A DNA stretch of 64,000 nt from Lepisosteus oculatus (Eukaryota; Chordata; Actinopteri; Semionotiformes; Lepisosteidae): assembly GCF_040954835.1 (NCBI RefSeq), contig NC_090703.1, positions 11,775,001 to 11,839,000 on the forward strand, given 5' to 3'. A program made the translations under genes and the position numbers. The notes beneath the pieces were generated by a model, which was not told the DNA's origin, made no database searches, and was given only the letters and a program-made list of their open reading frames with translations. Numbering within the stretch: the first letter of the stretch is position 1; the number at the start of each line of letters is the position of its first letter. Below are positions 50,401 through 56,978 of this stretch, piece after piece.

Positions 50401-53400
50401 GCTTACACTTATATATATATAGCGTGTTTTCTGGACACTCTACTCATAGCGCTTTACAGGTAATGGGGACTCCCCTCCACCACCACCAATGTGCAGTACC
50501 CACCTGGATGCTTGATTTGTTCAAGTAAATTCAAGTAAATTGCTTAAACCGTGAAAGGCTAAAAATGTTTATCCTTTTTTTAATCAATATCGCTTGTTCT
50601 TGAATTATTTTTGCTCCAGCCTTGAAGGCGTAACACCAACAGGAAGCAGAAAGCTGAAAGCACAGTGCACGAGCAGCTGGAGTTGTTCCCTGTAGTTTGT
50701 GCTTGTTTGCATTGCGGTGGGACCAGTTTCACAGAGCTGCACATTGAAATGAAAGCCACAGCAGCATCGGCAGAAGGAGCTGCAGTATAGCTGGCCTGAA
50801 CGGACAGGATCATAGTGGTACCTAGTACTTAATGGGTGTGAGTTGCTCTTAACTTCAGGACTCTTCAGCGCCAATGGACTTCTGCATCAATGGGAATGAA
50901 ATGATCAGTGACACATAAAAACATCACTCCTTCTCAAAGTTTCTTCTGTTTTTCATCATGAACATCCGAGACATTTTTATTGTTCTGTGTTCCCTAATGA
51001 CACTCATGCCAACATGGGTGTCATTACTTTGCGACACCAGTATTGAAATGTGTCAGGAATCATGTTACTTATTAATCAACTGCAATCAGTAATTCCAATG
51101 GAATGTGGAAAATTTCATATCAGTTTTAACAATAGTTTCTGAGGTTATGCCACTACCGTGCAATAATTATATGAACACATGAATTACATGAATTATATGT
51201 GTGTAGGAATGTGCTATGAGTATGAGCATCATACAGTCACTTCCACATTATTAGATCCTCACCTTGATACCAATGAAGACTTGTCTGCAGAATTGGCTCG
51301 ATCCCATGGCTTTTTCAGAGGATCTGCCAGAAGTACAAGACAGTTACTACCTTTACTGTTGAGACAGTTTTATTTCAGAAACCAGCCCTGCCCCAGCTCA
51401 CACACTCTAATTTTTAAAGAAACTGGAAACCAACCCTGAAACAACCCACCAGTAAGCTGGACACATTTATACTTAATTGTAATAAAAGGTGTTTTGTAAG
51501 TAGTAGAGTTTGTGGTGTTCTATTCACGTCATAATGAGAGTTTAATCATCAGCAATCTAATGTTTATCTGCTCTCATATTCCTGCTGGCCTTGTGAATTT
51601 GGCAGCTGGTTGTCCGGTGACCCCAAAATAGACTGCAGGCTATATTGAAGCTGGTCCAGACTGGGTTACCTGTGGAGTTCTGCTGTCCTGGCCCACGGGT
51701 GACAGGTGATGGAGACAGGCTGGAATCCTCCTACAAAGCATATTGTTTGTTCAATAATCACTGTATCATGAAATAATAATTGATAATTTTCTTAAAATGG
51801 AGTTAAATGTAATATAAATATATGATTTATATACACTGTGCAAGGCAGTGAAATATTTTGATTTGCCTTTGAATATTTCACTACCAAAGGAAATTTTCCT
51901 TCAGAAAAAAAAGGAAGAGATTTCCTACCTTTGGCCCTAAAATATCAAACTCTACAAGAATGCAGGGACCATCTTAACCCTAGCTAGGAATTTCAAGAGG
52001 GGATATGTGCTAACAGGTGAGAGATGGGAGGGAGCTGGCATGATTCACAGTGTAGCTGATTTCATTACAGCAAGTTTGACGCATTAACAACAAGATGGAT
52101 TGCCTGTTCTCACCTCTCCAGGGTTACTGGACACTTGGTTTTCAAAAAGACCTGTCTCACTCACGTTTTGGCTTTCTTCCTCTTTCTTGTCACTGGATTT
52201 CTCTGTCTGTGTAGCCGCTTTCCTTCTGTTAAAAAAAGTAAACTGTAAACATATATAGACCCGTACCGGAAACATATACGTTTAAGTAACAACGGCAGCG
52301 CTGTCAGCGATCGAATGAATTACTTGCACTGTCAAAGCACCTGGTGGGGTCTGCTAAATCAATGTCAACCAATGAAGATGGCAGGGGAAGATATGCTGTT
52401 CATTTGTTCACTTTGCTCATGCGGGATGGCGAGGAATTGTGAGTCTGAAGGCGGGCGCGCGAATGGAAATAAAATAACTCCCTGCAGTCTTACTCTAACC
52501 TTCGTGCCAGCAGGGCATTCATCTCCTGCATCAGCCCCCCTCCTCCACTCGTCCGGTTGGCATCGTTCTTCGCTGCACCACCGGGGCTGGTGCCTCCTGA
52601 CGCGTCTTCAGACTGTGAGCACAAACGGAGAGTGTCAGGACGAACTGTGCAAACAGCTCTTCTCTGGCAGCTAGGGCTCCTGGCAACTACAGTACTACAG
52701 TACTAAAGGATTATAATTTCTTAGGCCTGATTTTAAAGAGGAGGCCAGTCCCTGGTGTGACGTTGTCTTTGCAAGCCACAGGGGATTTCCAACCATCCCC
52801 AGGCTCCAGGTCTCCTGGGATTGGCAGAAGGTGATCCCTGCTGCTGCCAGTGACAGGAGCGGACGATCCTAGAAGATCCTAGACACTCACTCGTTGCACT
52901 TTGCGCAGTTTGGCTCCCGCCAGTGCCGCTGCCAGCCCTGAACCCGGGCTCTCGTCTCCTGCCCCGCCAGAACCTCCACCAGCCGGCAGCGGAGGCGGAG
53001 GGGGAGGAGCCCCAGCGGACGGGGGAGGGGGCCCAGGAGGAGGCGGGGGAGGAGGCGGACCTCCCCCAGAGGCGGGGGCTGCCGTGGGAGGAGCTACAGA
53101 GAGCACTGAAGAAGGATGCCCAGGCGGGAGGGGAGGACCTGTGTGAAAACAGGGACAGAAACAGGTGGTCTGTCACACTCAACACCAAAGCCCAGGACAC
53201 AGGGCAGTGGTTAGCAATCAAGCAGCAGCACAGCCCCAGTGCCGATAACCCCTCAAAGAACTGTGAGATAGAAACAACTAACTAATACATCAGGCTTTGG
53301 GAGACGCTGACTATAAAACAGTCAGTCATATTTTTGCTACAGATCTGTTCTAACTCTTGAGTGCTTTCAAGGTCATTTTTGAAAATGTTTTTTCCTCAAC

Positions 53401-56400
53401 AGTGATGAGAACTGGAGAAGAAAATTGCTTGGTGTCTTTAAATATAACAAAGATATATCTTGCTATTACTTTTATAATGTACGCAAATGAAGACTTTTTA
53501 CACTTTACAAGCTTTGAGAGAAAAACATAAAATAAAGACAAACTAGGAAACCAATACATCCTCTAAAAACATGTTTTCCACCCGCAGGCAGCCATTAAAT
53601 GGGATTCCATTTTCAAACACAAGCATGCACACTCAGTACACAGCAGGTTTCAAAGAAAATACCCTGAGATAATGTATAAATAAGGAGCAGACACAGAGGT
53701 CCGGTTGTTAGAGACGTGAAGGCAGTTTAACAAGAGGCTGGAGGCAGTATGTCAGTGCTGCAGAGGCACACTGCTTGGCATACCTTAAACTTTTGTTAAA
53801 TGTCAGGGCATGTATGTGCAATACAGACTGGCTTTCCTCCTCATGTCCAATACAAATTTCAGAAACATCTTAAAACTAAACTAAACGAACAGTAAGCCAA
53901 TCTTGTATTATTTCTAGTACATAATACAACTCCATGAAACCGAAACCGTAAAAATATAACAAATATTAAAGTTTACAAAAAAGGATGTGGAATGTCTAGA
54001 TGAATCTAGATCTGGGGAACAGAGAGATGCATACTCTCACAATTACTGTACATTAGTCTGTTCAAGCCAAGTAAGTGTTCATGCTCTCAATGCATGGGAC
54101 ACATAGACCAATAGATACTTTAATATTTAAAATATCTTAAATTATCTCCAGATTTTGCTCTCCTGCTGGAATGATTTTTGCTTTTTATTTTTTATTTCAT
54201 TTTTTTATTACTAGAGCATCCCACAGGCCCTGAGGGTCTGAGGAGTAGCCCATGAGACATGGCATCTGTGTGCAAAGCCCCACACAAAGCGATCTGAGCC
54301 AGCTGCAACACTGCCCTGCTTGCGGGGCTTTGAGGTACTTACTGGAGTGGGGTACGGCAGCCTGAGAAGGAGAAGGGGGGGTCTTCTTGGGCAGAGTCCC
54401 TTCGGACAGAGCAGTGTAAGAGGGGGGTGAGGAGCTGATAGGGGGGACAGACGGGTACAGCTGTTGCAGGTGGTAAGATGGGAATTGGGACTGGTGGGTG
54501 GGGCCTGTAACTGGATGACCAATCAGAGTGGGCAGGGGGTGTGACTCATAACATGGAGCGAATGAGCCATCAGGATGTTTGTAGAGGACAGGATGGGAGG
54601 CGGAGCCAGAAGAACAATGCATCTGGTGTTGGTTAAGGCAATAATCTTCCAGGTGATCACTGGAGTACTCTGCCCCATGCTGAAACAATGAAAGGTCTGC
54701 AGGTCCTTTGCCCCGGCCATTGTGAACAGGCAGCAAGGGATGGGCAACAGGGAGCATAGGCTGGGGGCAGACCTGCTTCAAAGGGGCTAGAGCCATCACC
54801 ACAGGGGGTGAGGGGGGCAGAGGCGAGAACATATGTGGGGAGGACCATGCACCAGACTTGGGGGGAAGCAAAGGGGCCTGGGAAGCTGCCAGCGGGGGAG
54901 AGATGGGGATCTGGCGGACATTTCGGGACAATGTCCCTACTCCAGGCTGCACTGGGGAAAAAGCAGAGGCAAGGGATGTTGAAAGCTGTGAGGCAACGGG
55001 TTTTTTTCTCTGGGGAGAGTCAGAGGTCCCATCTGCCTGCAAGGAGGCACAGCCTCCTTCGCCGTCCCGAGAGGAGGGGGAAGAGGAGGTAACCTTGGCG
55101 TAGGAGGGGGGAGGCATGGCCCCCGCTCGACAGTGACTATATTCAGGAGGGGGGGACTGAGACCGAGAAGAGGAGGGAGACACTTTGATCTGAAGGGTGG
55201 AAACTAAAGGGAAACAGACAAATAGTCAACAAAGAAGAAAGAGTCAGAATGCAGAAGGGAAAGAAAAAGAAAGAATATAACTCACAAAAATAACAGCAAT
55301 GGAACATGAGACAAACAATGTGTGACAAATCCTTATTTTGCCAAAAAATAAACATGATTAAAGAAAGGAAAGAAAATGTAAACATACGTTAATACCTCCC
55401 CTTCCCCTTCCTCTCCCCCAAGGTTTTCCAGGAAAGATGTCTAAGGTCCCCACAGAAGCAAATGTACAAAACACAGCTCCTTACAAACTTAGGCTACTGC
55501 TAGAGAAAAGATGTGTAGACCGATATTCCTGCAGGGACTAGTAAATGGATAGACTGAAGTACTAGTGTACTGCATGTTGGTGTTTGAAATCTCTGCAAAC
55601 TGTCGAAGGTGGAAGAGAGCTAGAAGTTCTCATGTGCTGCTGTGTACCCATTGGAAAACCATGACATCAGGTGGAAGACAGCCAGAGGCTCTCATGGGCA
55701 ACAGTAGGACATTGGAAAACCATGACATCAGATGGCAGACAGCCGCTGGGTCTCCTATCCCATTGCGCGGCCAATTCTGTGATCTGAAGGGTGCTGGACG
55801 CTTACCTGAGGTGGATGCCCTTCGATCCCTCTCTATCTGTGCCTGTAGCTGCTGCTGCTCCATCATCTGCCTGCTGAAACAACACACAGGGAACTCCGGT
55901 TCAGTCAGCTTTCATGCTGTGCCACAGGAACTAATCTTTACCTTTGTCTACGCTTTGGGAAGCTCAAGTGTTGTACCAGAAAGGCCCTGCAACAAAGTGT
56001 GCTGTATATAGGACATTTGTGCAGTGATTTACCAGTGAAGGGGACACAAGCCAGAGACCTTTTGCTAGTCAACAAAACTCAAGAAATTGAAACTGTGGCA
56101 TAGTGATTTTCTTTTGGGTCATTCCCTTCACTGGTGTCAATGGCTGGCGTCTGTGAAGAATAACATATGCAATGCAATCAAATGTCTTTTTATGCAATTG
56201 AATACAAAGAATAGCTGACAGATAAAACTGGCAATTGAATGGAATGGTGTGCCCACATTGGAAGCCTGCAAGACCAAAAACATAACTGACATAATTTGGC
56301 TTGGGAATGTAGCACCTGGAAGGGTCTGGAAGGGGAGCTGATGCAGTTGTGTAACCCTATTTAAGCCACACTTCTCAGTATTCTAGTTTGTTTTGTGCCA

Positions 56401-56978
56401 CCCAGCTGGAGTTAGGGTAGTGCAGTGGCCCAGGGAGAATGCAGTGTTATCATGCCTCTTTATACCACTAGAGGGAAGCATTGAGGCACACATAAGACAG
56501 ATCCCTCCGAAGCAAGATTCTAATTTTCCCAGAAAAAAACATCTGGATGAACACCATAAGGAGGTGGTTCCATTAACTGTAGCTACTAGATTTATAATTC
56601 TCTTAGGTCTAAGTAATGGAAAAAAAATATTTGAAGGGGTGGAATTCATAACCATTTTTAGCTTTTAAAGAGTTTGCACCTAAAGAAAGTCACAGAAATC
56701 ACAAAATGTGTATCAAGGGCTCCAGCAAATGCTACCTTTGACCTCTACAAAAATGACCAATCTCATTTTTTGCTTTTCATTTGATCTAACACATCTGCCT
56801 CAAAGGGACAAAGGGTCACAGGAATCACTATTAACTGAAGGTCACAGTTTCTTTTTAATTCAATTAACAGCAAAGAAAGCCAAGGACTGTCAAATAAGTT
56901 TCTTGCATTTTTACCTTCTCTGCATGTCCATGTCATCTGCAGATGGCCCATTCTGTACCTGGCGCTGGACAGCTGGAC
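47398..56978 (-). CDS. EVL: EVL (Ena/VASP-like) actin regulator, 3' portion after the EVH1 exons
   Basis: EVL is an Ena/VASP tetramer that binds profilin-actin and protects growing barbed ends at lamellipodia, focal contacts and growth cones. Exons in transcript order: 56978-56915, 55870-55806, optional 55203-54343, 53138-52891, 52612-52500, 52225-52165, 51730-51670, 51323-51263, optional 50881-50822, 48714-48648, 48299-48242, 47435-47398. All phases join. Visible parts are a Q-rich segment with the PKA-type RRAS site, a polyproline core ([26 protein letters not shown]), the G-actin motif [16 protein letters not shown], the F-actin motif [26 protein letters not shown], and the tetramerisation helix [38 protein letters not shown]. 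Without optional exons this part encodes about 278 residues, close to human EVL over the same region. EVH1 exons lie right of the window. Helix, [11 protein letters not shown] and synteny separate it from ENAH and VASP. Confidence 0.95.
47436..48241 (-). other. EVL: EVL intron before the terminal exon
   Basis: An 806-bp intron with gtaaga donor and tttcccag acceptor. No feature is seen. Confidence 0.85.
48242..48299 (-). CDS. EVL: EVL exon: tetramerisation coiled coil
   Basis: A 58-nt exon encoding [19 protein letters not shown] plus one base. It is identical to human EVL except D for E. It forms the core of the right-handed coiled-coil tetramer helix. The acceptor is tctgacag and the donor gtaaga. 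Confidence 0.95.
48648..48714 (-). CDS. EVL: EVL exon: [11 protein letters not shown] segment
   Basis: A 67-nt exon encoding [18 protein letters not shown] then DRMKQ, matching human RMKPAGSVNDMALDAFDLDRMKQ. Phase 2 in, phase 0 out. It follows either the EVL-I exon or the exon at 51263 directly. Confidence 0.95.
48715..50821 (-). other. EVL: EVL intron between the EVL-I exon and the 48714 exon
   Basis: A 2.1-kb intron with gtacca donor and tgtctgcag acceptor. It contains the truncated 5S-derived SINE at 50378-50510. Short open frames on both strands are unsupported. Confidence 0.75.
50378..50510 (-). mobile_element. 5S rRNA-derived SINE, short 5'-truncated copy
   Basis: The (AAT)n tail is followed by gcttacacttatatatatatagcg, then cactctactcatagcgctttacaggtaatgg and the start of the body, ending at cacctggatg. 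It has the same orientation as the other copies. Confidence 0.8.
50822..50881 (-). CDS. EVL: EVL-I type optional exon
   Basis: A 60-nt exon, phase 2 in and out, with acceptor gatgcag and donor gtacca. It encodes (R)[19 protein letters not shown](R). It corresponds in position and content to the 21-residue insert that defines mammalian EVL-I (VAKSPEAKSPLQSQPHS). Skipping or including it keeps the frame. In mammals this insert carries a protein kinase D site. Here the matching position is not serine. Confidence 0.8.
51263..51323 (-). CDS. EVL: EVL exon: KPWDRANS segment
   Basis: A 61-nt exon encoding (D)[19 protein letters not shown](R), matching human [23 protein letters not shown]. Acceptor ctggcag, donor gtgagg, phase 1 in and phase 2 out. 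Confidence 0.92.
51670..51730 (-). CDS. EVL: EVL exon: Ser/Pro linker
   Basis: A 61-nt exon encoding [20 protein letters not shown] plus one base, aligned with human EDPSTSPSPGTRAASQPPNSS. Acceptor tttgtag, donor gtaacc. Confidence 0.9.
52165..52225 (-). CDS. EVL: EVL exon: basic/acidic linker
   Basis: A 61-nt exon encoding (R)[20 protein letters not shown], aligned with human RKAASQSDKPAEKKEDESQM. The acceptor is tttaacag and the chosen donor is gtgagt directly after AAC, because it joins in phase 0 to the 51730 exon. The frame stays open past it, so readthrough or a later donor is possible. Confidence 0.88.
52500..52612 (-). CDS. EVL: EVL exon: F-actin binding motif
   Basis: A 113-nt exon encoding [20 protein letters not shown], then [17 protein letters not shown] and two bases of R. 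It carries the Ena/VASP F-actin binding block (LMEEMNxLLAxRRK type). Acceptor ctcacag, donor gttaga. Confidence 0.93.
52891..53138 (-). CDS. EVL: EVL exon: polyproline core and G-actin motif
   Basis: A 248-nt exon encoding [20 protein letters not shown], the profilin/SH3-binding proline runs, and the WH2-like [16 protein letters not shown]. It is CG-rich. Acceptor cacacag, donor gtgagt. It accepts the upstream exon either from 55806 (giving G at the junction) or from the 861-nt exon (giving S). Confidence 0.94.
53139..54342 (-). other. EVL: EVL intron after the large proline-rich exon
   Basis: A 1.2-kb intron with gtaagt donor and cacacag acceptor. No feature is recognised. Confidence 0.8.
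54343..55203 (-). CDS. EVL: EVL large optional exon resembling the neural Mena exon
   Basis: Between the RRAS exon and the polyproline exon lies an 861-nt open block with a ccctttag acceptor and a gtaagt donor. It enters and leaves in phase 1, so it can be included or skipped without a frame change. It would add 287 residues rich in Pro and Ser. Positions in the insert: PPPEYSHC (18-25), PPPSYAKV (31-38), LSTSLASAF (74-82), FSPLPPSPP (126-134), PMLPV (149-153) and SSPPSYTAL (258-266). From memory, the neural-specific large exon of ENAH (Mena) carries [32 protein letters not shown] and PVLPV in the same order, and sits at the same place just after the RRxS site. I know of no such exon in human EVL. 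Coding status rests on length, phase and motif order. Expression is not shown. Confidence 0.85.
55806..55870 (-). CDS. EVL: EVL exon: Q-rich segment with PKA site
   Basis: A 65-nt exon encoding (R)[21 protein letters not shown] plus one base, like human RRQVMEQHQQQRQESLERRTSAT. RRAS matches the Ena/VASP PKA phosphosite. The 3' splice site is a tandem cagcag, and the downstream AG gives RRQMM while the upstream one adds a residue. Donor gtaagc. Confidence 0.92.
55871..56914 (-). other. EVL: EVL intron
   Basis: A 1.0-kb intron with gtaaaa donor and the tandem cagcag acceptor. It contains a CTCF-like CCACTAGAGGGAA at 56465-56477 and nothing else recognised. Confidence 0.75.
56915..56978 (-). 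CDS. EVL: EVL exon immediately after the EVH1-coding exons
   Basis: A 64-nt exon encoding (G)[20 protein letters not shown] plus two bases, aligned with human [22 protein letters not shown]. Acceptor cttctcag, donor gtaaaa. Confidence 0.93.

Follow-up and report, generated by a model that had tools for sequence, protein, structure and literature searches.

The question raised by this locus is whether an EVL gene can carry its own counterpart of ENAH exon 6L, the large alternative exon that consists of the '+' exon plus exon 6 and belongs to the 140-kDa neuronal Mena. According to Veniere et al. (2010; PMC2898656), whose comparison took in gene structures from human, mouse, chicken, zebrafish and Xenopus, neither Vasp nor Evl has Enah exon 6. 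The EVL forms described in the cited parts of later reports are two: a 2023 review gives two isoforms 21 residues apart (PMC10340426), a 2021 study assigns to mouse EVL 14 exons and two isoforms differing by 21 residues, seen as 60/65-kDa bands (PMC7857432), and a 2017 study describes the same 21-residue isoform difference for human EVL (PMC5655499). To the extent that these two isoforms and the 14 mouse exons are the full set (PMC10340426, PMC7857432), mammalian EVL is without a 6L-like exon. A preliminary description of the window, i.e. the entire 64,000-nucleotide stretch analyzed here, proposed that the EVL of this fish has one.

The gene itself is identified firmly, by sequence comparison, as EVL, in agreement with that description. 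Two EVH1 exons are located 8-10 kb outside the window on the same strand as the exon in question, and their translation matches the PDB entry 1qc6 (EVL) best, with 237 bits, as opposed to ~177 for ENAH and 149 for VASP. In addition, the tetramerization domain in the EVH2 region of EVL is recognized on the same contig (C8) by a VASP_tetra match above cut-off, and tblastn of a provisional human EVL sequence also matches. The neighbors of EVL in the window include a Mito_carr gene and an FA_desaturase gene by Pfam, and a YY1-like piece that is without Pfam match; we take the three to be SLC25A29, DEGS2 and YY1. In the human gene order, SLC25A29, YY1 and DEGS2 adjoin EVL.

Three Ena/VASP loci were found in the 1.2-Gb genome, with EVL on contig C8, ENAH on C2 and VASP on C3. 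Three of the nine tetramerization-domain matches are above cut-off, one per locus of this set, and six of the seven EVH1 matches fall at the same three loci; the one that remains is weak (E 8e-4, 35% identity). The EVH1 domain encoded on C2 is closest to ENAH entries and LERER repeats are present at that locus; the repeats form a long run at approximately C2:58767004-58767300, which ends RRMSNA/G (the slash marks the exon boundary here and below). Near the first ENAH EVH1 exon sits an open fragment resembling a transposase, presumably of the Tc1 type.

The EVL exons relevant to the question are as follows.

56915..56978, minus strand: further EVL coding exon
55806..55870, minus strand: upstream EVL exon ending RRASTS/G; owing to a CAGCAG double acceptor it may instead begin at 55873
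54343..55203, minus strand: EVL exon with supported homology to ENAH exon 6L; 861 nt (287 codons) with phase 1 at either end
52891..53138, minus strand: downstream EVL polyproline exon; the 52891 end was set by eye and is approximate

The 861-nt block is contained in a 342-aa stop-to-stop frame, the longest in the window. Its length is divisible by 3, and with one base (G) borrowed from the preceding exon it is open over all 287 codons. Only one of 3000 dinucleotide shuffles was free of stops, and between 5 and 14 stops occur in each of the remaining five frames, although openness is weak evidence for the last 129 codons, over which 98 of 3000 Markov sequences were also stop-free. Retranslation and the shuffles thus bear out the open, phase 1-1 block at 55203..54343 that had been claimed, and every motif quoted for it is present in the translation. 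The placement between an RRAS exon and a polyproline exon also holds: the preceding exon ends at 55806 (RRASTS/G) and the following one begins at 53138 (/GTCCTCCC; /GT CCT CCC), where boundaries, at this site as at the ENAH site, were taken from the splice consensus. Given these flanking boundaries and the phase 1-1 block, the EVL frame is kept whether the exon is included or skipped. The serine of RRASTS is assumed to be a PKA-type site. At the start of the same upstream exon, the CAGCAG double acceptor (55870-55873, minus strand) perhaps makes one residue optional. With the exon peptide as query, neither Pfam (E up to 1) nor PDB (E up to 10) gave a match, and Rfam has no match at gathering thresholds anywhere in the window.

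The relation to ENAH was revealed by searching the genome itself. With the EVL exon peptide as query, the 1.2 Gb yielded the exon and one other place (E 2e-10), which is an 819-nt phase 1-1 ENAH exon between the RRMSNA/G exon and a polyproline exon. The reciprocal search with 145 residues of the ENAH frame recovered, besides the query's own locus, the EVL exon (E 5e-15). The Smith-Waterman score between the two, 257, was reached by none of 2000 residue shuffles, 2000 ten-residue block shuffles and 2000 first-order Markov sequences. A provisional mouse 6L sequence, backed by published junction primers (PMC2898656) and the PPTPPLR motif (PMC10340426), behaves similarly: it scores 231 against the EVL exon (0/2000 in each of the same three randomizations), finds that exon as its single tblastn match in the window (E 4e-6), and is 63% identical to the ENAH of this genome over 148 columns. 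These comparisons support homology of the EVL exon to ENAH exon 6L at the same site and in the same phase.

The homology does not extend over the whole exon, which divides into two parts.

54735..55155, minus strand: core alignable with ENAH 6L (residues 17-156), with the PPEY/PPSY pair and TSLASAF; 61 of 136 aligned residues identical
54343..54734, minus strand: EVL-specific C-terminal part of ~130 residues, which contains a third PPxY, the PPSY at residue 260

Thus, the proposed homology to the large neural ENAH exon stands, by the reciprocal matches, the randomizations and the common site and phase, for approximately residues 17-156 of the 287. It does not stand for the tail, whose relation to the ENAH tail is not detectable (484 of 1000 shuffles score as high), and residues 1-16 are without homology support. 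Over the 136 columns of the core, base identity between EVL and ENAH by codon position is 0.55/0.66/0.29; where an identical residue also has the first two bases in common (47 cases), the third bases agree in 21%. Third positions appear saturated while the protein has been held, which points to an old divergence.

The exon also has putative docking motifs. PxxP-type sites occur in both exons at different positions, whereas PPEY and PPSY are 13 residues apart in each, at 19/32 in EVL and 11/24 in ENAH; the provisional mouse ENAH has LPEY and PPSY instead. PPxY is a class I WW-domain ligand. Ser or Pro makes up 99 of the 287 residues of the EVL exon, and the pattern applied for polyproline profilin sites found none in it.

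Taken together, the evidence makes it very probable that 55203..54343 is a real EVL cassette exon, its splicing being predicted, and that it and ENAH 6L descend from one exon of the ENAH/EVL ancestor. Splicing it in would extend by 287 residues the disordered linker that separates EVH1 and the PKA site from the profilin-binding polyproline, and would add the PPEY/PPSY pair for partners with WW domains and PxxP sites for those with SH3 domains. Since the exon has these motifs and lacks the polyproline profilin pattern, its inclusion is predicted to lengthen the linker and add docking without adding profilin sites. Skipping would give, in frame, the ordinary short EVL. By analogy with ENAH, the long form would be expected chiefly in brain, perhaps also in heart, and this is the weakest step of the proposal.

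Indeed, the alternative with most weight concerns that step: the exon might be used broadly or constitutively, in which case a 'neural EVL' fails and the exon stands. We consider this possible but less probable than not. Neural use of the EVL exon is argued by analogy with ENAH only, and the analogy is itself loosened by the account of Veniere et al. (PMC2898656), according to which mouse Enah exons once called neuronal are used in other tissues too, heart in particular. The 140-kDa ENAH form, on which the neural expectation for EVL is modeled, is reported from brain and heart (PMC3751641). The flanking introns are of little help. Their likeness between EVL and ENAH is not significant, as 152 of 3000 shuffles reach the observed score upstream and 739 of 1000 downstream, so that a conserved intronic setting around the 6L exons is unsupported. 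An Rbfox-type GCATG common to both genes was not found, EVL having one at +259 and ENAH none within 400 nt downstream. What the two do have in common is a 9-mer in the upstream pyrimidine tract.

55250..55258, minus strand: CCTTCTGCA, at -55 of the EVL exon; the same 9-mer stands at -56 before ENAH 6L

Among shuffles, such a coincidence arose in 3 of 500 when the offset had to be the same and in 15 of 300 when any offset was allowed. This hints at a splicing control shared by the EVL and ENAH exons and speaks against broad use. It is post hoc and suggestive only: the 9-mer stays a lead because it was noticed by a search that required TGC within the word, and TGC occurs within 100 nt upstream of five of the six other EVL acceptors examined. 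Also against broad or constitutive use, EVL without the exon is the form described in the cited parts of PMC10340426 and PMC7857432, and skipping preserves the frame.

A second alternative is that the exon is a relic, its frame left open from recent activity and now unspliced. Here the splice sites are informative; their scores rest on approximate site frequencies and matrices. The preliminary description called both sites good, which is true of the donor: no GT site in 54100-55400 scores above CCA/GTAAGT, and among the 3870 GT sites of the minus strand its rank is 106. For the acceptor, TTTGTCTGTTTCCCTTTAG/TTT, the corresponding rank is 91 among 4143 minus-strand AG sites, but within 54100-55400 it comes only sixth, and this favors the relic. 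However, all five AG sites that outscore it are internal to the block. Only one of them, 54951, is in phase with the preceding exon, and its use would remove most of the ENAH-like core; the other four are out of phase. As the better AG sites are all within the block, 55203 is the sole in-phase acceptor upstream of the core among the eight listed. Site 54951 (minus strand, TTTTTCCCCAG/TGC) could in its own right yield a shorter form without the PPEY/PPSY pair. The internal acceptor with the highest score, 54361, is out of phase, and for this reason a plain cassette is the preferred reading of the block. With the splice dinucleotides intact and the best donor of the region, 287 stop-free codons (matched by one in 3000 shuffles) and ordered motifs still common with ENAH after saturation of third positions, a relic is improbable.

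A third alternative, that the ENAH exon moved into EVL by later copying or gene conversion after the vertebrate lineages split, is more doubtful still. In its favor, the comparison covers a single EVL exon, too few for a tree of EVL exons. The column counts argue against a late copy. Over 145 columns, EVL shares 63 with the ENAH of its own genome and 60 with the provisional mouse ENAH, whereas the two ENAHs share 98. Since EVL is about equally far from both ENAHs, which are mutually closer, the EVL and ENAH exons appear to have split before this lineage and that of mouse parted. The counts fit descent from the ENAH/EVL ancestor and not recent copying, as do the saturated third codon positions, and lend support to the earlier suggestion that the exon predates the ENAH/EVL split. 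Finally, although disordered segments so rich in Ser and Pro might resemble one another, chance likeness can be dismissed, for none of the 6000 randomized sequences reaches the score, the motifs are collinear, and the only other match in 1.2 Gb, found in both search directions, is the equivalent site of the paralogue.

Returning to the reading of a cassette exon inherited from the common ancestor, we see three consequences. First, it contradicts the published absence of Enah exon 6 from Evl (PMC2898656, as stated there) and, given that statement, would bring EVL into the 6L exon family as a new member. Among the open-access matches listed, no title or opening of an abstract concerns a 6L-like EVL exon, and the exon's motifs matched one paper of that literature, for PPTPPLR only; automated gene predictions may already include the exon. 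Second, the origin of the 6L exon would precede the ENAH/EVL split. Third, a comparison of paralogues at third-codon saturation shows where selection has held a 240-residue segment of Mena that is poorly understood, namely at the PPEY/PPSY pair, TSLxSAF and FSPLPPSPP, and so offers concrete motifs for Mena itself. Going further, we see about an even chance that a long, regulated linker exon with the PPEY/PPSY docking pair and a shared pyrimidine-tract control element was already present in the ENAH/EVL ancestor, that two 'neural' Ena/VASP proteins, long Mena and long EVL, are still produced in some lineages, and that mammals and others lost the EVL copy, leaving Mena alone.

How does the exon compare with known alternatives in the family? 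The mammalian EVL-I exon (10a) is likewise an alternative exon of EVL, but it encodes 21 residues in the EVH2 region (PMC10340426, PMC2898656). In zebrafish Evl, it was not found by Veniere et al. (PMC2898656); in the present window, a 60-nt in-frame candidate with a GTACCA donor is located at 50822-50881 (minus strand), with weak likeness to a provisional human EVL-I (tblastn E 2.8). Fish are reported in the same paper to have two Evl genes (PMC2898656), as opposed to the single EVL locus found in this genome, which would suit a non-teleost fish, a teleost in which one copy was lost, or some other vertebrate. VASP, the third family member, has the same exon order around the site as EVL but is devoid of a 6L-like exon: the best tblastn matches over 40 kb had E 0.89 and 1.4, and by eye only ~250 nt separate the two exons that flank the equivalent site.

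The closest relative remains ENAH 6L, with which the EVL exon has a homologous core of ~140 residues. Both follow an exon with a PKA-type RRxS and precede a polyproline exon, both are phase 1-1, and both have a length divisible by 3. They differ at the C-terminal end, where the ~130-residue EVL tail, without a polyproline run, is unrelated to that of ENAH and bears the PPSY at 260 as a third PPxY found only in EVL. They differ also in internal organization. In ENAH 6L, 237 codons are followed by an in-phase internal acceptor, one of two in phase among the four pyrimidine-rich sites listed; its use would yield the short exon 6, which fits the organization of the mouse gene. The in-phase site of the EVL exon, 54951, is at a different place.
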